From: Pocillopora verrucosa
Taxonomy: Eukaryota > Cnidaria > Anthozoa > Scleractinia > Pocilloporidae
NCBI RefSeq assembly: GCF_036669915.1
Contig: NC_089312.1
Span: 30,847,830-30,911,829 of the forward strand
Length of the DNA stretch: 64,000 nt
Reading direction: 5' to 3'
In this document: positions 28,550-44,202 of the stretch, in pieces
How the letters are laid out: each line of letters begins with the position of its first letter
Position numbering within the stretch: position 1 is the first letter of the stretch
Notes under the pieces: generated by a model
The model's input: the letters and a program-made list of their open reading frames with translations, nothing else
Databases searched by the model: none
Told to the model about the DNA's origin: nothing
Program-made: the position numbers and the translations under genes

Positions 28550-31525
28550 TAGATGGTCATTGGATGAAATGCTTATGATCCCTGTGTACTACAGCCTAAA
28601 ATGAACCTTCAAACGATCTTAATACTTTGAAAGGGAAAATGTGAATTTTTATTTGCCAATAGTACTTTCAAGAACCAAATTAAGAATTTGTTTTTCATTG
28701 TGATGGATGCCAGCTGAAAAATATTCTCTTTCTTCCTACCTGACGCAATACATCACCAATCATGACTTTTTTCTATGTCTTTTGTTTCATTTTATCATTT
28801 CACTTTGTCCTCTGCCTGTTAAAGTCCATTTGACAAATAGATCCCATGTTTCTGTGAGTCAGTTTAGTAACAGACAATGTCAAAATGTGGTAAGGGGCAC
28901 ACAAGGTGCCGCTGAGCATGTCACTATTGTTCTCATTTTGGTATCTTCTGTGATCTATTACTGTACAGACAACAACAACATACCATCTACATTTGTTTTA
29001 CATGAAGAAAAAGCAACATGTTGTTTTTGTTGATATCTATTATGTGTCTGTCCTCCAACAGATCATAAGTAAGAACCAGTCAAAATTCCCGCATGATTCA
29101 GCTTATCATATAAATATGTACATTTTTGATAAAGCCTTTCCTTTGTTTGATTGTGCAATTACAAAGGTCTTTAGTATGTTTTCATTCTTTTTCACATCTT
29201 ATGTTATATCTTATATACAAGATATGATTTTAAAAATGTCCTTTACAGATCTTTGAGGCAATAGATAAAGAATGCAATGTGCCTGCTTCCAAAATTACAG
29301 TGTTGAATAAAATTTCTAAGTTAAAAGTCTACTTGAGTAGAATTTGTAGAAGCGTAGTGGGTATTACATGCAATTGATACCCCCTGAATTCTATAGTCAT
29401 CATCGTTAGAGTCTTTGTGTAGGTATTTTACAAACAAAGATATAATTATTTGTAAATATAAATTGATGCAAATTTTTACCAGCAATAAAGCTTGTCATGT
29501 CGATGAAGAATTAATGTTGTTTTCAAATTTGACACTGAAGAAGAGAATACTGTGTTAAAATCGCTTAATATTTAACTTCTTGTTCTCCCCGAGATGCACT
29601 CTCGATGCCCCATTTCTGATGAATACTGTTAACTGCCGCTTGCAAGCTTATAGACGGAGGTGCTTATACCCGAAAGGGTGGTGACTTTTAATCGGATGTA
29701 TTTTTCGTAAGGCTATAACTGGGAGAGGAGCTTGGAAGCGGTAGTTCGCGGTATGAGCACTAGTCGGAGTAAAAACTGTGAATTGCGTGGTGACAGAATG
29801 TCGTGAGTTAAGATTTACGCGCCTCTTTGACTTGTATCAACTATTTATGATAAGTTGAGGTTGGGCAGACAAATTCATTCTTAGGGGCTTTTCCCTTGAA
29901 GACAGGGAGACCTCCGTATCCCCCTTCAGTTCGAGGGAAAAGCCCTGGGAACTAGTTTAATGGGCTAGGGTTTCTCTTTGAGCCAAAGAAAGCAAATTGC
30001 CGAAACTTATTCCGGTTGTTAATGGCATTACTCAATTATTAGTATATCTAATCCTTCCTGGGTGCGCGGGCGGGCGCGCGTCCATCTCACTGCTATCATT
30101 CCGGTTCTAACTTAATTAGAGTTTCTCGACAGTTTGTAAGTACTCTTTTGAACTTCTTAGCGGAGAAAGGAAATGCGTGAGTTACGCGTCCAAACCTCCA
30201 GGCCATTCGTGAAAAGAGCTTAGTAATAATTCCTCAATCAATATTCATTACTGACGCGCTTTTACATTTCACTCCAGCCTTTTCAAGCACGCTCAAATTA
30301 ACATCTTGCGGTTGACGTTGCGAAATGAACTTGAGAATAATGACCGTCACTCTGATTGGCTGAAGTCTGCATCTAACAGCCAGTTGCCACATAAATTATA
30401 TGCAACTAGACTAATGATTAATTGAACTCATCAACATACATCTTGGTAGCGGTAGAAACTTGCAAAGCTGTGATGCGTTTATTCATGTATATCATTCCAC
30501 AACGTCGAAACTAATGGTACTCGCGATGATTTAAGTTTGCTCAATGCGTAAAATAATTCCTTGCCTCGATAAGGGAAGCCATTCAAATGGTTCTAAGTAC
30601 ACCTGAGCCGGTAACGCAGTTGTATTTTGAGCCTGAAATCCGTTACCTTTCAATAATAATTGATCTTACAAATTAAATATTTTTTTTTTTTCATCCTCTA
30701 TTGCCCACTTCTAGTACCCCTTTGAAGTGTGGGCATGAGAAATGATCCTTTCCATTGCAACCTAAGGTTTTAGTTCTTGCTGTTTCTAAAAATATCGACT
30801 TCGGTAATACCCTTGGTGCACGATTTGGGCTGCGGGTGGTACTAATAAAGCCGACATACGAATTATTTACTTTAAAAATATATATTAAGGTGATATTCCA
30901 GAAATATCTTCCACTCTTTCAATAACCATTGCCTTACAAAGGTGTTGGAATATTTGAGCAAAAACTCTGAACCCACTTGCATAGTTGAATAAAGCTCTGG
31001 GTGTTTGCTTTTGTCTGAAATTTTCTTACGAAATTTGAATTTAAAACAAACTGTTACGACAATAACTTAATAAATTATGCAAAAACGTTATGTTCATCCT
31101 TATTGAAACAATAGCACTGGTACAACTTCTTGACTATAACTGTTCCTTGTAACAACATTGGGTGTATTTGAATGTCTCAAAGAACTTCTTGACAATTAGG
31201 AACTATTTCACGCAAAATTTTCATCCCTTTGCAGTTAGGGGCACCACTTTGCTCACAGGACCAAAATATATCGACATCTGAAACTGCTTTTAATTATTTA
31301 TAACGACTTACGTAAAGCTAATATTGAATTATCAGGTATGTGGAAGTTGTTTTGATATCCGTTCAAACTCACGCAGTGTTCTGCTAACAAAAGTGAAAAT
31401 TACTGTTTGATGTATTGCCCAGAAAGTTCTTAGCAACATAGCAAGGTGATGTTACCATCTCGACACATCACTAGCCTTTCTTCTGTAAAGGTTAGAGAAT
31501 CTCGACTGCAATAATTCCTTCCACG
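28550..31525. other. WASHC3 3' UTR and intergenic DNA
   Basis: After the polyadenylation signals near 29306-29489 there is about 2 kb without a coherent open frame. A short GC-rich stretch (GCGCGGGCGGGCGCGCG) lies at 30064-30080. The 5' UTR and promoter of the gene at 31526 should be in the right part; no motif decides its start. Confidence 0.35.
29306..29489 (+). terminator. Candidate polyadenylation signals of WASHC3
   Basis: AATAAA occurs at 29306-29311 and 29484-29489, giving a 3' UTR of about 0.75-0.95 kb. The open frames at 28707-29256 lie inside this UTR and look accidental. Confidence 0.45.
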
Positions 31526-33235
31526 ATGTCAAGGAAGAAAACAACTGCAAAAAAGCCCGGAATCATTCAACAACGAAACTTCCAACAGCAATTGAAAACT
31601 GTTAAAAGTTTAGTCGAGGACATCGCTGATTCAGAACATCCTGAGGATCACGAGATTAAATTGAAAATCAAGGAGAAAACTGATCAAGGCTCTCCATCCT
31701 TTACTCAAAACTTCACACGAAACCGGGGACGAGAAAATACGTCAAAAACTCAGTCAGGCACTTCTTCTTCTGACGCATTCTTCGATAATAATGGTTTTTT
31801 TAACGGATTTGACAGCGACTCGGAGAGCGAAGACAGTGGGGAAGATTGCGTTGAACAACAAACCGAGACTCGTGAATTAACAGAAGTCGAGAGACTCGAA
31901 GAGGTTCAGACAGACTTGGAGGAAAAAATAAAACAAACTAAGGAACTGCTCCAGAAAACAGACCGAACGAGAAATCAAAGAATGCATGGCCAACAGAAGT
32001 TGAGGCGACTTGAGCTAAAAGTTGAAAAGTTGGAGCAGCGTCTGGAAAAGGAGAGAGCAGGAAAAACTCGATGGACTTTTGTGCGCAAGAACGTAAGAAA
32101 GCCTAGGGTTGGATTTCACAGCAGCGATTTGTTAAATCGTAAGGTTCCACTGGCCGAACTGTTAGTAGCTTCATCAGAAAGCCGACCTCATCTGGCCGAT
32201 GTTGTTCTCCAAGAGATGCATCGCGATGTTGCTGGTCAAAATCAAGTCGACGATGACCCCTCACCAAAGCCGAAAAAGCTTTTCAAATCGAAAGAACTCC
32301 ATGAATTTGAGAAAAGTCTTCAAGAAGACGACTCCCAACAGCACAAGAAATTGACAGAATGTACAACCGATGACTTGTCGCCGGTTGAGGCAGCCAAACA
32401 GGGACTGAAACAAGACGAGAATGAAGAAGAATCTTTGGAAAGCTTCAACATAGAGCAACTAAAAGATCGAAAAGAGATGGATAAGGGATGGCTTCGAATC
32501 AGTGACAGGCCTGACGGTTTCATAAAGAAGATTCAAGATGTGTCAGAGACAAAGCAGTCCAAGCAGGCTTGGGTTAGCATCAATGACCAAGGAAGTCAAA
32601 TGTTTGCGAGGAAAGTGTTCCGGGCTCAGGTGAATGGTGACTCATTCCTCGCGCGTTCATTGGACGGGAGAAGAAACACGCTTAGCAATCGCGGAAAAAC
32701 ATTGAACGTTGATAAAAGAATGTCTGTTTGTGGTTCCGGAGAGACTCGTATCAACAGTAAAGACAAAAACACAGTCAAACGTGCCGGACGATCATCATCT
32801 GCGCAGTCCCAGCGAAAAGCGATGGTGGTGAAAATGGACACCGTTACTGGGACGAATACTTTTCTGCCCCCGATTCCAAAGTCTGAAGCGAAGAAACGCC
32901 CAAAAGACGAACAAGTGGAAAAAGTAAAAGATGAAAACGACAGTGAGCAACAGAAAGAAAAGATAATACTGATTCCTAATCGAAGGCGACTGGCCAGAAG
33001 AAGAATCCAGATTTACCTAAAACAGCTGGAATTTGTCAAGTCACACAAACTAGACGAAAAGGAGGTTGTAGAGAATATAGCATCCTCAGTCGAGGACTAC
33101 CACGGCGGCAAATCAAAAGAAGGAAAGAAGGAACATGACGCAAAAACAACTCCACGGAAAACTTTGTATTTAATTGGAGCATTGTCAAAAAATCACCTTT
33201 ACCCTCCCACAGCGCTGCCGAATGATCTATTATAA
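31526..33235 (+). CDS. Intronless coiled-coil protein of unknown function (569 aa)
   Basis: A single open frame begins at an ATG preceded by CCACG and runs 569 codons to TAA. I do not recognise the family. It is highly charged. The N-terminus is basic (MSRKKTTAKKPG); residues 97-107 are an acidic run (SDSESEDSGED); residues about 118-177 form a coiled coil rich in Glu, Lys, Leu and Arg (LEEKIKQTKELLQ, LRRLELKVEKLEQRLEKE). The middle is Ser/Asp/Lys-rich and probably disordered, and near the C-terminus there is an Arg-rich helix (RRRLARRRIQIYLKQLEF). There are no signal peptide or membrane segments. The length and lack of stops argue for a real gene. A single large exon among intron-rich neighbours could mean a retrocopy or a young lineage-specific gene. 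A nuclear or cytoskeletal role is possible but not shown. Confidence 0.7.
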   Translation: MSRKKTTAKKPGIIQQRNFQQQLKTVKSLVEDIADSEHPEDHEIKLKIKEKTDQGSPSFTQNFTRNRGRENTSKTQSGTSSSDAFFDNNGFFNGFDSDSESEDSGEDCVEQQTETRELTEVERLEEVQTDLEEKIKQTKELLQKTDRTRNQRMHGQQKLRRLELKVEKLEQRLEKERAGKTRWTFVRKNVRKPRVGFHSSDLLNRKVPLAELLVASSESRPHLADVVLQEMHRDVAGQNQVDDDPSPKPKKLFKSKELHEFEKSLQEDDSQQHKKLTECTTDDLSPVEAAKQGLKQDENEEESLESFNIEQLKDRKEMDKGWLRISDRPDGFIKKIQDVSETKQSKQAWVSINDQGSQMFARKVFRAQVNGDSFLARSLDGRRNTLSNRGKTLNVDKRMSVCGSGETRINSKDKNTVKRAGRSSSAQSQRKAMVVKMDTVTGTNTFLPPIPKSEAKKRPKDEQVEKVKDENDSEQQKEKIILIPNRRRLARRRIQIYLKQLEFVKSHKLDEKEVVENIASSVEDYHGGKSKEGKKEHDAKTTPRKTLYLIGALSKNHLYPPTALPNDLL

Positions 33236-35066: not shown

Positions 35067-38000
35067 TTAATCTCGTGGCAGCATTTCATCTAGATCGGCA
35101 ACAGTGTAAGCCACAACAGTCCACACCGCAGCACACAAATCCATGGCATCAGGGTCTTGTACAGTCATGGTGTCACCATTTGTGTGGTGAAACAAGAAGT
35201 ATTTACTGTTTTCATTGTCCAAGCTTCCACCAGGTACCCTATGTCGGATCCAAGGATCGATATCCCCACCGAGATTAACAGCTTTGAGATTGGTGGCGTT
35301 AATTGGCTTCAAAAGCTTCACTACCTCCCTCATAATATCTGCTGCTTTTTTACTGCCTTGAAAGGCTATTCCTACAGGCTTAAAGGTTCCATAATCAGAC
35401 TCCATCACTAAGCTGAATTTTCCAGCGTTTTTTTTGTGAAGGTTATACTGTTTTCCTCCAAGGATATTCTCTTCTTCTCCTGTCCATAGCACCATGCGCA
35501 TTGTACGTTTTGGTTTGAGACCTAATCGTCGAATAACTGACAGTGCTTGCCAGGAAATGAACGCCCCGCCCCCATCATCCATTGCGCCTTGACCGACATC
35601 CCAGCTGTCTAAGTGACCGCCAACAAGAACCACCTAAAAGTCAAGAAAAAAAGACATGATCATTGTACACTGACGAAGTTTTTGCTACGAAATTAATAGC
35701 GGGAGATCAGTGTGACCCAACAAGATAATATTATCCTCGTCTGAATAAAAGGAAAGAGATCTAGCCATCAAAATTGAGCTGGGGGATTCTGCGTAGCGGC
35801 TAGAGAATTCTCATATCACCCAAGTAAATGAACATCTTGTTCTTAATTTTGTCTTTTGAACCATACTGTTCACTAACGCTCTTCTTGTTTGAGTGAAGTG
35901 AAATAAAAGCTATTTAGAGCACAAAAGCCAATCAGAGAGAAAGTATATATGAAGGATATAGCCTTGCCTATACCGAATTCCTATAACTGCGACGTGCTCA
36001 AAGAACAGGAAAATGCAGGCGACCTATTTTTTTGGAATCCCTTTGGTTGCCAGGGTGGGACCGGGTGGTTGTAATATTAAAATGCACAATACAAAGCGAG
36101 GGATGGTTTTAACAACCAGGGGTATTAGATTTGTAATAGAAGCCTTAGGGAATAACTTGTAGACGGAAAAAAGCAAATGATTGGAGAGAAAAAGAAGACC
36201 GGATGAATCATTTAGAAGAAATAGTCTTTGTGGGGCGAAGAACAGGCAACGTGACATAAAAATTTAAATCAGTCAAGTTCGAAGCATCATATGGAACCCA
36301 GCTCGACTTTGAAAATTTTCCAGATAAACTCTTCAGTGTTTGACCAAGCAACATTATCGACGAAACTACGCTCAGACGTAACCTGCTGCACTTTTACAGT
36401 GACGTGACTGGCCCCAATCCAATACTGTTGGATTGGGGCCAGTTGTCCCAGCCTAAAAGAAAGTTTTGAAAAGCACTTACCTGCTCTGGATACACGCTAC
36501 CTTTTATTTCAGCAACCGTGTTCCTAGAAATTACAGGCGGCAAATTTTGGGCTTCCATTTTCAAGTTGACGATTATTTTCGTTCCTCTTGCTGCCATCCT
36601 GGCCATCATTTCTGCATCTTCTATTGTAATACAGGCTGTGGGGATTTTCTTTACTCCTATGAAACACGACATCAATATATATATATGAATGGGAATGCCA
36701 TATCTAGCATTGTAATCAATCAAATATTTTCTGCTCGCGCGCGATTAGTCTAAACGCATCACATGACTGAATACTTCCCAGCTAAAAATGGGGAATATCC
36801 GAGGATATACCTCAAGGGATATTCCACAATTTCAAACCTTACGTCAACTACGATGAGCCTCCATTTAAAAGTTTATTCAAGATGACAGAGCGTTTTGGGG
36901 TTGTTACAGAAAAAGGGACATTTTTGTTTGTTAATGAGATCATACCGGAGAGTACTGAAAAGTGAACATCCCGGGCAGCAAACAGTATTTTTTTCCCGCG
37001 TCGCAAATATTTGAAGGTATATATTTGATGATAAACACTATAGCCTCTTTTTGGCGCGAAAATACGCTCGTATATTTGTCTTTGGACATTATCTGTTCCT
37101 CGAAGCTTGCAGTTTTCCACCAGCTTCGCTCCCGGAAAACTGTTGAAACAGTTGAAACAGATAATGTGCACGCACAAATATCAGTGTGTATTTTCGCGCT
37201 AAATGGAGACTATTGTTTATTCTATAGCCTATTACTGATATGAATGAGCTGCCAGGAACAAAATTTCCTACCTGTAACTCTGGTATCTGCAAGGATCTGT
37301 TCTTGACCTTTAAAGTTTTAAAGTCTTACATGGTTGTCTGGTTGATGACCGATAGGTAAAAGATATGTAGGTAACACAGGCATACTATACCTTCTTTATA
37401 AACTTGCCAACCAGTATGAGGACTGTAAATAGAAAATGGAGTCACAGAACGGATGAGGGAGGCAAGACCACCAACCTTAGCCACCTCTATAGCGCCATAT
37501 ACTCGATAAGCCACTGTCTTTCCATAACTGATCCACTTCTCATTAAAAACCACAATTTTACCCTTTGCCTGCAGGGGAAAAGAAATGACATAATCTAGAT
37601 ATACCAGGGAAGTGAAAAAGTGCTATAGTTACCCCGTTTGCTTTACTTTTTGGCATTTTTTAAGGGTAACTTGACATTGACTTTCACTGCAATCATCGAA
37701 AGATTTTTCTCTTAAAATAATTCAGAGGGAACAACCTGCTGGCCACCTCTTTAGCCCAGAATCATGACAAGCATTTTAGTTGGAGGATATGATCTTCCAC
37801 GGCTTTTGTCACTCTCATCACGAAGTTTGCCAGTTCTTGTTGGTGGCACCAGGCTAATTTACATTGTCATTTTTTGTGGAAGTTAAAGTGGCTTTAAGGT
37901 TTGAACGAGCTCGCTGCATTTCGAATAAGTCCCAGTGGGTTCTCGCTGAAAGTTTGTCTCTTCACCCAGTAGTCTGAATGGGTACAAGCGAAACCCAACC

Positions 38001-38664
38001 AGATGCGGATAGTAGGTTTGGAGAGACGTCGCAACTCTCTTTTTTGAAGATCCTATAAGCATACTTCTTGTATTAGGGATATTACTGAATTTGGGCAACT
38101 GAAACTATGAAGTACAATTGATCTGTTAGTGATCCGTTCGATTTGTAAAGTACGTTAAAGTGTACGATGTACCATATACCTCTAAGGCCTGGCATGAAGT
38201 TCATCAAATGAGCCCACAACCAAAACTTCTGCAGTTATACCTTCAGGCAGAGTACTTACACTGCCTCCGAGGCCAAGCAGGGCAATAGAGTGATTCCTGG
38301 GCATAATCATTTGGGCTGATTCCTTACCACGCACCCAGTGGGTTACATTCACTTCTTCACCATGTACATTATCAAGTTTGTCCTCTTTCAGTTCATCAAG
38401 CATGTAATCTATAGCATGCTCCAGATTGGCAGAGCCTGCAATTCGACTGCCAAATGTATCAACAAACGTTGCAAGTCTATTGTAAACTTGATGCTTTCCT
38501 GGTCCTTTTGTTAAGAAGTCTATAATCTTGTTTGCATTAGCTTGATGATCTGCCATCTCGTTCCTTACCATGTTTAAAGCTTTGTTAACATCCCTGGCTG
38601 ATTCTGACATTAATGACAGTGAGCAAATCAGAACAACATGCAACCAAATAATCCTTAGCTCCAT
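35067..38664 (-). pseudogene. CPQ: Carboxypeptidase Q copy A, frameshifted in exon 1
   Basis: The four exon-like blocks are 38664-38180, 37568-37391, 36656-36481 and 35633-35067, with the same splice sites and phases as the intact copy at 40516-43345. Exon 1 is 485 bases against 486: one base is missing in the codons for Ala-Lys near 38190, so the frame hits a stop just before the donor. Exon 4 is one codon shorter. Zinc-site motifs remain (GGHLDSWD, GAMDDGGG, WTGEE, MESD, FHHTNGDT), but the loop GGDIDPWIRHRVPGG departs from the family GGDI.FWIQ.GVPG. Either a young pseudogene, or an assembly error, or a gene rescued by other splicing. If translated correctly it would be a secreted M28-family metallopeptidase like its neighbour. 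Confidence 0.75.
36407..36443. repeat. Perfect 16-bp inverted repeat with 5-base loop, in CPQ copy A intron 3
   Basis: ACTGGCCCCAATCCAA at 36407-36422 and TTGGATTGGGGCCAGT at 36428-36443 are exact reverse complements around TACTG. It is GC-richer than the surroundings and absent from the corresponding intron of copy B. It could be a tiny hairpin insertion. Confidence 0.7.
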
Positions 38665-38727
38665 GTTAACCCTAAAATTGCACAAGAAAAAAAAATTAAG
38701 AAAAATCTAAACATGACAGTGCAAACA
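38282..38727. repeat. 446-bp tract identical to CPQ copy B (42963-43409)
   Basis: By eye, every base matches the copy B tract except one A in a poly-A run. The tract covers the 5' three quarters of exon 1, the start codon and about 60 bases upstream. Left of it (38180-38281) the copies differ at about 10 of 103 positions; right of it similarity stops abruptly. Confidence 0.85.
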
Positions 38728-38809
38728 TGTAATTTATAGCATGCTCCAGATTGGCAGAGCATGCAACTCGACTGCCAAATGTATCGACAAATTTTGCAAG
38801 TCTGTCGTA
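38726..38809 (-). pseudogene. Relic of a CPQ exon 1 middle segment
   Basis: Beginning CATGTAATTTATAGCATGCT, this 84-base stretch matches the part of CPQ exon 1 at 38521-38440 region in content (the segment for ANLEHAIDYM and the residues before it), in the same orientation, with about 8-9 differences. It starts exactly where the identical tract ends. The divergence level equals that of copy A's own exon 1 end, so it is probably what is left of the original copy A exon 1. Confidence 0.7.
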
Positions 38810-40515
38810 GCATTTCTGAGGCATGGAAGTCTTACAGGGCTGATGTGACGTGGAACATTTTGCTGTCGCGGGAAGGTGATTCGGTGAAAACTGACGTTAG
38901 AAGACTCTTGTTTTTAACTGCCTCGAGAGGTAAGATATCTCGGTATTTCAACATTTCGCTTCAGCGGAGTTAGATTTTCAGACCAAGACACGCATCATTT
39001 AGAGTTTTATTCGTAACTTTCATGCATTTCTTCATTTCAGGGTACTCGTAGGGTGGTTGACCTGTGTTTTGAAGGAGACAGGTGTTTTTAAACGTCGTGG
39101 GGGGGGGGGGGGAGAGGGGGCGGGGTCAATCCTTGAGAAGGCAGTAGTTCCAAAAGCTCCTACTACGTATTATCCTAATGAAACGATTCGCGAGAAGATC
39201 ATGAGGCGGTTTATTTCACCAAACCAATTTATAACTCGCAGGCGATAGTTCCTGCATTGAAAGAGGGAAGGAGCGAGGTCTGCTCCTACCCGACAGCCCC
39301 CCTCGCTCCCTGCTGTTCGGTTTAGTTTTTGCTTTATCAATTAAACTTCCATGTGGTTTAATTTTAATTTTGGAGGTTCTCAGTGAAACCAGAAGAGTTT
39401 TGAAATATTGGTCTTTTGGTTCGCCTAAATTATCCCTCGGCGGTTTAAAAATTAACATTTTAGTAGTTTCCGTTGAAAAACAATTCTTTTATTTGAAAAA
39501 TTCTGTCAATTACAAATCTTCCTCAAAATTTTGAAAGAGGGATTATCCCAGAAATAGAAAAATCCACATGTTGTTACGTCCAGACAAGATTTTCCCCACA
39601 GAGATTAGTAAGCTTCAGCTATGAGTCAAAGCCTCCAAAGGCAGGATGGACTTTGATATTTGAAAAAATGACAAAGGACCCATCTTCCCTGAAGGGGAAT
39701 AGAGTATGTCTAGAAATAGTGACAGTAGTTTCACTTTAACAAGGGGAATCAACACCTTTTGCTGATGTCTATGTCAGCTTGGGTGCTATTGTGCTTGTGC
39801 CATATGACTACATAGTAGAGCTATTAGGAATCCTCCTTGTACAGGAATTTGTTAAGTTGTCCTAGGGAAGCTATTGAATAGGATTGTAATGCCCCAGAAG
39901 ACTTTTTCTTTCCCTGTACAGAGGACCATAACTTGCAAAACAGTAAGGAGTGAAATATTTCCCTACCTAAGTTTCCTAAAAAAACCTACAACTACAAATT
40001 AATTCACACCTTCAAAACCTGTTGATTTAAACCATGTTTAAGAGAACTCATAAACCAAATTTCCCACAGGATTCAAGAAATGGCCAACTTCTGTTTTCAA
40101 CGTGCTTCATTTAACGTCAACAAACATCAATTTAAGCAGCTTCCATGAAGAAAAAAATTTTAAACCATGCTTTGGTGTGAATGGGGTATCATTTTAGTAG
40201 TATATACTTGTGTTTAAAAAAATATACTTTAACTACTAGAATCAAATTCCAATGAACTATTCTATCTGGTGAAAGGCATGCAGTAGAATTAAAAAAAATG
40301 TTGTCCTGTCTCTAAAGTACAGATCATGTCACCCTCCCTCTCCTTTCCTACCTGAATATTCATCTCATCTCACACTAAATTATATTTAAAAAATATTATT
40401 TCATTTGCTTTAGTGTCTGTGTCTTGAGCTCATTGCTACCTTAAAAAAGTAGTAAGACTTTTTACAATACTGAAAATGAAAGAGAACTACATTGGTAATC
40501 ATAGTTCTGCTGTTA
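38810..40515. other. Spacer between the two CPQ copies
   Basis: No gene was recognised. There is a poly-G run at 39101-39113. The 3' UTR of CPQ copy B should occupy the right end. Confidence 0.35.
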
Positions 40516-43345
40516 CTAGTTTCGAGGCAGCATTTCATCCAGATTGGCAACAGTGTAAGCCACAACAGTCCACACTGCAGCACACAGGTCCATGGCATCA
40601 GGATCCTGTACAGTCATGGTGTCACCATTTGAGTGGTGGAAATAGAAGTACTTGCTGTTCTCATTCTTCAAGCTTCCACCTGGTACTCCATCTTGGATCC
40701 AGAAGATGATATCCCCACCAACATGAGTAACTGTTAGGTTAGTGACATTAATTGGCTTCAACAGCTCCATCACATCCTTCATAATGACTGCTGCTTTTTC
40801 ACTGCCTTGAAACACTATCCCTAGAGGCTTGAAGGTTCCAATATCAGACTCCATCACCAAGCTGAAATTTACTGCACTATCTTTGTGACGGTTGTAGTAC
40901 TGTTCTGCTCCAAGAAGACCCACCTCTTCTCCTGTCCATAGCACCATTCGCATTGTGCGTTTTGGTTTGAGACCTAATTGTCGAATAACTGATAGTGCTT
41001 GCCAGGAAATGAATGCACCACCCCCATCATCCATTGCACCTTGACCAACATCCCAGCTGTCGAGATGGCCACTGACAAGAACCACCTGAAAGACAGAAAA
41101 AGAGGACATCACAAATAGATGTTAAATACTATGATAAGATTCAAACATAATTGAGAAATCAGGCCCTGGTTATTCGCAAGGTGGATATAGCTATCCATTG
41201 GATAAATATCTAACTGGTGGACAGTGAAGTCTGTTTTGTTAACACTCATCCACTGGACAGTGAATTATCCTTTGGATAGTATTAAGCACCCTTTGACCAA
41301 CAGGGCCCTGGTAGCCATTAAGGAGAAAATGAGCTCCATGAAATGCAGATACCTGTTCTGGATGCACACTGCCTTTTATCTCAGCAACTGTGTTCCTAGA
41401 AACTACTTGTGGCAAATTTTGGGCTTCCATTTTCAAATTAACTATTATTTTTGTTCCTCTAGCAGCCATCCTGGTCATCATTTCTGCATCCTCTATTGTA
41501 ATACAGGCTGTTGGGATTTTCTTCACTCCTGTAACAAACGACATCAATATCCATTGAATTGCCATGCCCTACCTTGCATTATATAGGCCTGTTTCTAATA
41601 AAAGTTAGATGCTTGTAAAATAATTTTCAACCTGCATACTGCAGGTATCTGTTTGGTACAACAATTAATGCTTCTTTGTACATTATTCAAAAGATTGTCC
41701 AATTATAAATTTCAAAATTTTAAAGTCAAGTGACCCAAAGGGTTTTCTTCCCATTCACAGACGTTTTTCTCTTTTTCTTATAACTAATTCTTGATTTGGT
41801 CAAGGCCTAGATGAAGATGCTTAAAGTTCTGAGATTTTGCCTTAATTTGTGCTTTCAAAAAATTAGAATTTAATCTCGAAGAAATTAATCTGACTCTCTC
41901 ATGGTCTCAATTCCAGCATTTCTTTAGCATTGCCCTGTAGGTGAGAGACACTGGAGTATGGTGAGACCACATGACCACTGCAAAAAAGGCTAGTAGGCTA
42001 ATTAAAAAAAAAGGCTTATCATATCTTATCATTTTCATGGTTGGTTAAAAAGCAATAGGTAAATATAGAGAGGTAATATACTTAAAAGTATTGATAAGTT
42101 TACCTTTCTCATAATATTGCCAACCAGTATGAGGACTGTAGATAGAAAATGGTGTCACAGAACGGATGAGGGAGGCAAGGCCACCAACTTTAGCCACCTC
42201 TGCAGCCCCTTGTGTACGATAAACCACTGTCTTCCCATAACTAATCCATTTCTCATTTAAAACCACAATTTTACCTTTAGCCTTTATGGAGGAAAGTATA
42301 TTGCAATAAAGATATCATTATGACAACTTGAGTAGAGAAAATATTTGTTTTTTACACAATATATTCTTTTGTAATATATATTTACTAAACAATGTCTCTG
42401 CCTTAATCTTCAAATTAGTTCTCATGCAAATACCAGTGAGTAAAGTAAGTATAGCATAGAAGTAGCATTTATGAATGATACAGTTTCCTATGACTTTTAA
42501 ATAACTGAAACTTCTGATGCTAGAAGTTAACTGGGAGCCAGTAGGGGGCAAGGGGAAAAAGAAATTCAGGAAGGATATGACTTGCTGTTTGGCAAGGAAA
42601 GTGACAATTCATTATGATGAAACAACAGTAGCATTTGCCCCCAAATTCCAGATCTAGGTCCTAAACAAGAGAGCCACCACTTTAATGGTAAGTCCTGCCT
42701 GATTTCTTATGAAGTTTTGACTTAACTATGTAAAAACAGAAAAAAGGAGGTAAGTTCCTAAAGAAACTGCATCGTTGCATCAGTAGGGAGAGGAAGGGGG
42801 GGGATTATAAGTTAATTTATCAACTGAGTTGATACTACATAAAAAGATGTACCATATACCTCTGAGGCCTTGGCATGAAGTTCGTCAAATGAGCTCACAA
42901 CCAAAACTTCTGCAGTTATACCTTCAGGTGGAGTACCTACACTACCTCCAAGGCCAAGCAGAGCAATAGAGTGATTCCTGGGCATAATCATTTGGGCTGA
43001 TTCCTTACCACGCACCCAGTGGGTTACATTCACTTCTTCACCATGTACATTATCAAGTTTGTCCTCTTTCAGTTCATCAAGCATGTAATCTATAGCATGC
43101 TCCAGATTGGCAGAGCCTGCAATTCGACTGCCAAATGTATCAACAAACGTTGCAAGTCTATTGTAAACTTGATGCTTTCCTGGTCCTTTTGTTAAGAAGT
43201 CTATAATCTTGTTTGCATTAGCTTGATGATCTGCCATCTCGTTCCTTACCATGTTTAAAGCTTTGTTAACATCCCTGGCTGATTCTGACATTAATGACAG
43301 TGAGCAAATCAGAACAACATGCAACCAAATAATCCTTAGCTCCAT
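40516..43345 (-). CDS. CPQ: Carboxypeptidase Q (plasma glutamate carboxypeptidase), intact copy B
   Basis: Exons 43345-42860, 42281-42104, 41528-41353 and 41085-40516 join to 1410 bases (469 aa; human CPQ is 472). A signal peptide spans residues 1-20 (IIWLHVVLICSLSLM). The M28 di-zinc peptidase domain follows. The family's metal ligands and catalytic Glu are visible: His287 in SGHLDSWD, Asp299 in GAMDDGGG, Glu333/Glu334 in WTGEE, Asp361 in MESD and His431 in FHHSNGDT. NxS/T sites fit a secreted or lysosomal glycoprotein. CPQ hydrolyses dipeptides with free N- and C-termini. An upstream in-frame ATG at 43396 adds residues MFRFFLIFFFLCNFRVN, but Met at 43345 sits right before the hydrophobic signal and matches family length. 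Copy A lies 1.9 kb downstream in tandem. Confidence 0.92.
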
Positions 43346-43446
43346 GTTAACCCTAAAATTGCACAAGAAAAAAAAAATTAAGAAAAATCTAAACATGACA
43401 GTGCAAACACTTCACCCTACGTTGATTCTGTGCAAATGCTAGCCAG

Positions 43447-44194
43447 GAATTACAGTTAGATCACACCATGGTTCGATTGCTCCCAGTTAGATTGCTCCAA
43501 CCAAAAGTTAGATCGCTCCACTTGAAAGTTAGAAAGTTACAAAGTTTCATCAAATCAGTTACTTTGCCACTAACATAAGTTACTTCACTCCATGTAGAAA
43601 ACTAAGATAATGGCAGCAAAACTAAGGTATTTAAATTTATAGTTCATTAAATGACGTACATATTTTACTGAACAATTGATTGATATTGCTTGTGCATACT
43701 TGAAATAAATCCGAGCTACTCAGAAAGAACAAATAAAGCCTCATGAAAGGTATTCACAAAGTGTAATCTACTTTATTAATTAAAGATGGCAGATATCAGT
43801 TTCCTTATATCAAACTGCAAAAAAAAGCCACACTGGATAGTATTGGTATTTGAATGATCTTTTTCAATACACTTCAGACTATAACGTTATAATTTATTCT
43901 ATGATCATTTATTCCATCATCACTGTACATCATACATCAGTAGCTCGGTGGCTAATATGAAGGACAGAGTGAATACGATGTACTTGAATTGTCTCAAGAC
44001 ACATCATCACCTATAAACTTTAAAGATCATTGGTAAGTAATACTTCACTTTACAACATGAACGAAGTAACTTATGTTGGTAGCGAAGTAACGTATTTGAT
44101 GGAGCAATCTAACTTTCGAGTGGAGTGATCTAACTTTTGGTCGCAGCAATCTAACTGGGAGTGATCTAACCATGGTGCGATCTAACTGGATACC
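43447..44194. mobile_element. Non-autonomous inverted-repeat transposon with 8-bp target duplication
   Basis: The outer ends GAATTACAGTTAGATC and GGTATCCAGTTAGATC (reverse complement of the right end) open imperfect inverted repeats of about 130 bp. Both arms carry repeated motifs of the form AGTTAGATYGCTCC and GTTACTTCRCTMC. The direct repeat CTAGCCAG flanks both sides (43439-43446 and 44195-44202). An 8-bp duplication fits hAT-type (or P-type) transposition. The 0.75 kb encodes no transposase. It lies just upstream of CPQ copy B. Confidence 0.75.
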
Positions 44195-44202
44195 CTAGCC
44201 AG

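Follow-up and report, generated by a model that had tools for sequence, protein, structure and literature searches.

Interlocus (ectopic) gene conversion between tandem duplicates leaves a near-identical tract between otherwise diverged paralogues, with sharp edges and with homology on both sides. Repair in which homologous and nonhomologous mechanisms are coupled is another known kind of event, reportedly described by Richardson and Jasin in 2000. In a mouse-cell reporter for the non-canonical termination of recombination, every cloned breakpoint carried microhomology or added bases (PMC5104497). Two Drosophila studies indicate that aborted recombination, with repair synthesis from a homologous template, can be completed by end joining (PMC3330096) and that end-joining junctions, largely in Rad51-mutant flies, contain microhomologies of 1-3 and 5-10 bp (PMC2895639).

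The locus described here lies in a window of 64,000 nucleotides (the whole stretch of DNA that was analysed) of Pocillopora verrucosa, whose assembly comprises 353 Mb in 52 contigs, the window being located beyond 30.8 Mb in its contig. It contains a tandem pair of CPQ genes, copies A and B, both on the minus strand; the name, which fits the human protein, was taken over from the original prediction. The gene models used were as follows.

35067 to 38664, minus strand: CPQ copy A, with exon 1 at 38180-38664, exon 2 at 37391-37568, exon 3 at 36481-36656 and exon 4 from 35633 down to the stop at 35067
40516 to 43345, minus strand: CPQ copy B, a 469-aa model with exons at 42860-43345, 42104-42281, 41353-41528 and 40516-41085

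The three introns of copy A are all of the GT...AG type and the frames of its exons 2-4 are open; its frame is broken near the end of exon 1. Both copies encode M28 peptidases, as exon 4 matches Pfam Peptidase_M28 with scores (102.9 bits for B and 86.7 bits for A) above the curated cut-off of 21.3, and comparison of exon 4 of copy B with solved structures gave Peptidase M28 3iib as the best of 24 chains (E 6.6e-29). Exon 1 of copy B alone produced no Pfam match. A genome-wide search with exon 4 of copy B returned six matches, corresponding to B itself, to A (78% identity) and to four weak ones (28-32% identity). Over exons 2-4 the two copies differ at 136 of 915 compared bases, with a dS of 0.467, a dN of 0.095 and a pairwise dN/dS of about 0.2, and the splice sites are intact. 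To the left of the pair, 31496-33235 on the plus strand is an open reading frame encoding 579 residues, many of them charged, and a long G-rich run is located between the copies at 39097-39125.

Exon 1 of copy A is a mosaic, in which a tract matching copy B adjoins a remainder of the original exon. The parts concerned, including the source in copy B, are these.

38180 to 38281, minus strand: what is left of the original exon 1 of copy A at its 3' end, with 9 substitutions and a 1-base gap relative to B 42860-42962
38282 to 38727, minus strand: patch in copy A, 446 bp corresponding to B 42963-43409, with 383 coding bases (ATG at 38662-38664) and 63 bp upstream
42963 to 43409, minus strand: source tract in copy B, delimited by base-by-base alignment and column counts

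The original prediction was that the left remainder differs from copy B at about 10 of 103 positions and that the following stretch is identical save for one A in a poly-A run, and both statements were borne out by the alignment and the column counts. Divergence between the copies was not uniform along the exon: beyond the 9 substitutions and the one-base gap of the remainder, 446 columns contained no substitution at all, with A one base shorter in the poly-A run, and then the match ended. The identical run is beyond chance: when the 1,554 gap-free columns of the A/B alignment (exon blocks and their short flanks) were permuted 10,000 times, the longest mismatch-free run was 132 columns and the median 49, so that 446 was never attained. 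The left boundary of the patch (38281/38282) falls inside exon 1 homology, whereas the alignment of A with B ceases beyond 38727, in such a way that a homologous flank exists on one side of the patch only. Therefore, although the near-identical tract and its sharp edges resemble those of interlocus gene conversion, the homologous flanks on both sides that ordinary conversion presupposes are not present today, and one edge is instead a non-homologous joint with a displaced piece of exon. As the patch includes only 63 bp upstream of the ATG, the promoter of copy B was probably not carried over.

Regarding the surroundings of the source tract, a further in-frame ATG is present in copy B upstream of the likely start (VMFRFFLI...), within 43343-43411, and the same ATG is out of frame in copy A owing to the shorter poly-A run. 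An interspersed repeat of about 750 bp with long inverted ends (43447-44194) is located just upstream of copy B and starts 38 bp beyond the end of the copied tract. At least 128 genome pieces matched it, self and part matches included (40 of 392 candidates scored), and it is flanked by the 8-bp direct repeat CTAGCCAG (43439-43446 and 44195-44202), as expected of a hAT-like miniature element.

The right edge of the patch and the sequence beyond it were resolved into three features.

38722 to 38727: joint, in which CA (38726-38727) is shared exactly and, extending leftwards, CAAACA of B and CAAGCA of the in-place exon equivalent agree at 5 of 6 bases
38726 to 38809, minus strand: displaced relic of the middle of exon 1, 84 bp or 28 codons with an open frame, differing at 8 of 84 bases from B 43082-43165
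38810 to 40515: spacer between the relic and the 3' end of copy B, in which nothing resembling the 5' part of exon 1 was recognised

The relic, which had been noticed from the letters alone as 84 bases in the same orientation and about 10% diverged, was thus recovered as such, and the CA attributed to the joint is indeed found there. A repeat search delimited the relic at 88 nt, with 38722-38809 matching 38397-38484 at 90%. It lies on the same strand as exon 1 and is diverged to a similar degree as the left remainder: in the codons compared, 8 of 84 bases differ in the relic and 7 of 84 in the remainder. The dN/dS of the relic is 0.51, based on 8 changes. Taken together, the exon 1 remainder and the relic differ from copy B at 15 of 168 bases, vs. 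136 of 915 in exons 2-4 (p 0.04; p 0.02 for silent sites), a weak indication of lower divergence in the former. When the protein encoded by exon 1 was searched genome-wide, three places were found, namely B, A and the relic, so copy A is the obvious source of the relic.

The joint microhomology is weak evidence by itself. Among random position pairs (200,000 drawn, of which 147,724 were kept after dropping those whose next base also matched), 7% shared two exact bases and 0.6% reached 5/6, figures to be read with a six-base length that was picked after seeing the joint and a template that is a stand-in for the original exon of A, now gone. The relic is present after the joint, yet its own right edge at 38809/38810 is also in the middle of the exon.

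Sequences that could represent A's own 5' part of exon 1 were searched for to the right of this edge and elsewhere. Local alignment of 38810-39400 with B 43166-43600 scored 26, vs. a shuffle mean of 25.3, with 44 of 100 shuffles as high; a loose tblastn with the first 73 residues of B hit the patch and the relic and otherwise yielded only fragments, none better than E 1.5; and in the genome-wide search with exon 1 no further remnant of A's own 5' end came up. No tandem-duplication junction was recognised when 38810-40510 was compared with the 3' flank of A and the 5' flank of B in two orientations each (2, 60, 1 and 43 of 100 shuffles as high), the low figures of 2 and 1 corresponding to long gappy alignments and to shuffles in which dinucleotides were not kept, for which reason they were not taken as evidence, though a real match may underlie them.

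The age of the tract can be bounded from its identity. With 0 substitutions in 446 bp, the divergence since copying would be at most about 0.7% per site, so that the copying is recent by this measure; for silent sites the bound is about 1.9% (a rough count over some 161 silent and UTR sites), that is, about 4% or less of the silent divergence between A and B.

The direction of copying and the constraint on each copy were analysed by residue comparison with 74 bacterial homologues, selected by patterns from exon 4 of B and 44-50% identical in that exon (80 loci matched, of which 6 were not used, no open frame of at least 350 residues having been taken from them). Columns to which bacteria contributed fewer than 20 residues were left out of the count, as was the one-residue gap of A. 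At all five amino-acid differences of the relic the residue of B was the commoner one among the bacterial homologues, and BLOSUM scores favoured it 4 to 1. Two of these changes, G77C and D86N, affect residues conserved in 100% and 99% of the bacterial homologues, respectively, and the patch keeps the conserved forms. In the exon 1 remainder, the B residue was also favoured by residue frequency, at 3 of 3 sites. As the patch keeps near-invariant residues that the relic had lost, transfer from B to A is favoured over the opposite direction. Provided that the displacement of the relic is recent, exon 1 of A was probably decaying before it took place.

A general decay of exons 2-4 of copy A, which had been expected, was not seen in the same comparison, the A residue being the commoner one at 26 sites and that of B at 16, with 7 ties. 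Two nearly invariant glycines have been lost from A in these exons (G336N and G413R). How much each copy contributes to the pairwise dN/dS of about 0.2 is not separable, but a copy A unconstrained since the duplication would be expected to have added far more amino-acid change. This ratio, the intact splice sites and the fact that A is no further than B from the bacterial homologues make it probable that copy A worked as a gene during a large part of its history.

To account for the mosaic, we give roughly even chances to a single repair event, starting from a break in exon 1 of copy A, in which one end was extended by copying from copy B and then joined by microhomology to the other broken end. 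A double-strand break or a broken fork would have occurred in exon 1 of copy A, and the end carrying 38180-38281 would have invaded the homologous exon of copy B. Copying would then have proceeded for 446 bp through the middle of the exon, the start codon and the 5' UTR, seen today as identity, and would have come off the template at the point where A offered nothing that matched. Finally, a short microhomology would have served to join the copied end to the opposite broken end, the first part of which was A's own exon middle, seen as the joint and the relic. Along this path, about 119 bp of the A exon between 38281 and the relic would have been lost and replaced, and A's own 5' part would have disappeared earlier or during the same repair. 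The tract, the joint and the relic are legible in the DNA itself; the break, the invasion and the enzymes would be their presumed antecedents.

Such a coupled repair is supported by the position of one edge inside homology (38281) and by the other edge being a non-homologous joint with a short microhomology. It also fits a relic that is on the same strand and as diverged as the left remainder, and the conserved residues of the patch, which point to B as donor. The original prediction of a templated insertion or replacement from copy B that duplicated part of the exon is kept as the simplest reading, although a displaced relic does not call for a new process: one-ended invasion followed by end joining gives one, and an older rearrangement followed by conversion could do so too. 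Three points weigh on the one-event model. The model requires that copy A no longer had its 5' part beyond 38809, or that this part went during the repair itself, although the copy had probably been a working gene for a long time; the joint is exact over just 2 bp, as found by chance in 7% of random pairs; and the dN/dS of 0.51 in the relic could mean that this fragment was idle before the recent copying.

An alternative is a two-step history, which we regard as unlikely, though likelier than the other alternatives. In it, an older rearrangement left the relic in front of an exon 1 of copy A that was still complete, and ordinary gene conversion from B has recently replaced 38282-38727 as far as homology reaches, a course that would leave the same layout and account better for the constraint seen in exons 2-4. 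Copy A would thus have stayed complete for most of its life, matching the dN/dS of about 0.2 in exons 2-4, the changes at invariant residues (G77C and D86N) would fit a long-idle fragment, and the end of a conversion tract at the homology limit would be natural, as the relic beyond it could not convert. This history still requires an earlier event like that of the coupled repair to make the relic, and a very old idle fragment would be expected to differ at more than 8 of 84 bases, given the dS of 0.467 in exons 2-4.

The mid-exon edges on both sides of the relic could also be produced by serial template switching (MMBIR/FoSTeS-like), in which B was copied, a microhomology switch led to the A exon on the sister chromatid or homologue for 84 bp and a second switch led to 38810 onward. 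Complex breakpoints with template switching are described for two clones in PMC5104497. We consider this course of events improbable, as it requires a second switch although a single joint, together with an older loss, would suffice, and microhomology at 38809/38810 cannot be judged with the original sequence of A gone. An assembly artefact, either a haplotype hybrid or a misjoin of A and B, is about as improbable: a chimeric consensus could yield 446 identical bases, but a collapse predicts neither the relic nor its joint, and the assembly is contiguous, with the window beyond 30.8 Mb in one of only 52 contigs.

Compared with the described systems, the coupled repair proposed for copy A shares with the non-canonical terminations of PMC5104497 a homologous start, a copied tract and a second end rejoined by microhomology or added bases. 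The latter were reporter experiments in mouse cells, mostly with long tracts from the sister chromatid, whereas the present case is a natural sequence with a diverged tandem paralogue as donor, a tract of 446 bp and a displaced piece of exon with a cut of its own at 38809. The aborted recombination of Drosophila (PMC3330096) resembles copy A in that homologous repair synthesis can be finished by end joining, and differs in that the breaks were experimental. No report of this mosaic was found among the papers listed for templated insertion with gene conversion, or for carboxypeptidase Q in corals or tandem duplicates, a scope too narrow to call the case unreported.

The consequences for copy A depend on two further features of the exon 1 remainder.

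38189 to 38190, minus strand: 1-base gap of A relative to B, after which the frame meets TAG (HARP*) just before the splice donor
38254 to 38259, minus strand: donor-like GTAAGT (phase 0) in A, GTAGGT in B

Since the gap near 38189 gives a stop before the splice donor, copy A is not intact by the ordinary splice pattern: its standard splice model stops at codon 161, after 160 residues, whereas B is open for 469. At the level of the DNA, the patch did supply copy A with a new start codon, as claimed earlier, but this model of A does not read through, and copy A is probably not functional. There is a possibility that GTAAGT at 38259 serves as the donor, its strength having been judged by eye against the consensus, in which case the frameshift would be skipped and an in-frame product of 441 aa is predicted. 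That a paralogue without a 5' end regained its start codon, a signal-peptide-like start and its N-terminus in one repair, with the remaining frameshift bypassed by the new in-frame donor (GTAAGT at 38259) to give a 441-residue variant peptidase, seems to us a long shot.

The mosaic is informative about repair but belongs to an already known kind of event, as coupled homologous/end-joining repair leaves such a relic, and it looks like a well-preserved natural footprint of a repair that began by copying from a paralogue and ended by end joining, the same process studied with engineered breaks in PMC5104497, PMC3330096 and PMC2895639. For the gene pair of P. verrucosa, it means that a start codon and an N-terminus identical to those of the intact neighbour do not make a gene intact, and that copy A could be annotated as a gene because of its patched exon. 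Were the 441-residue reading true, a decaying gene would have been brought back in changed form.
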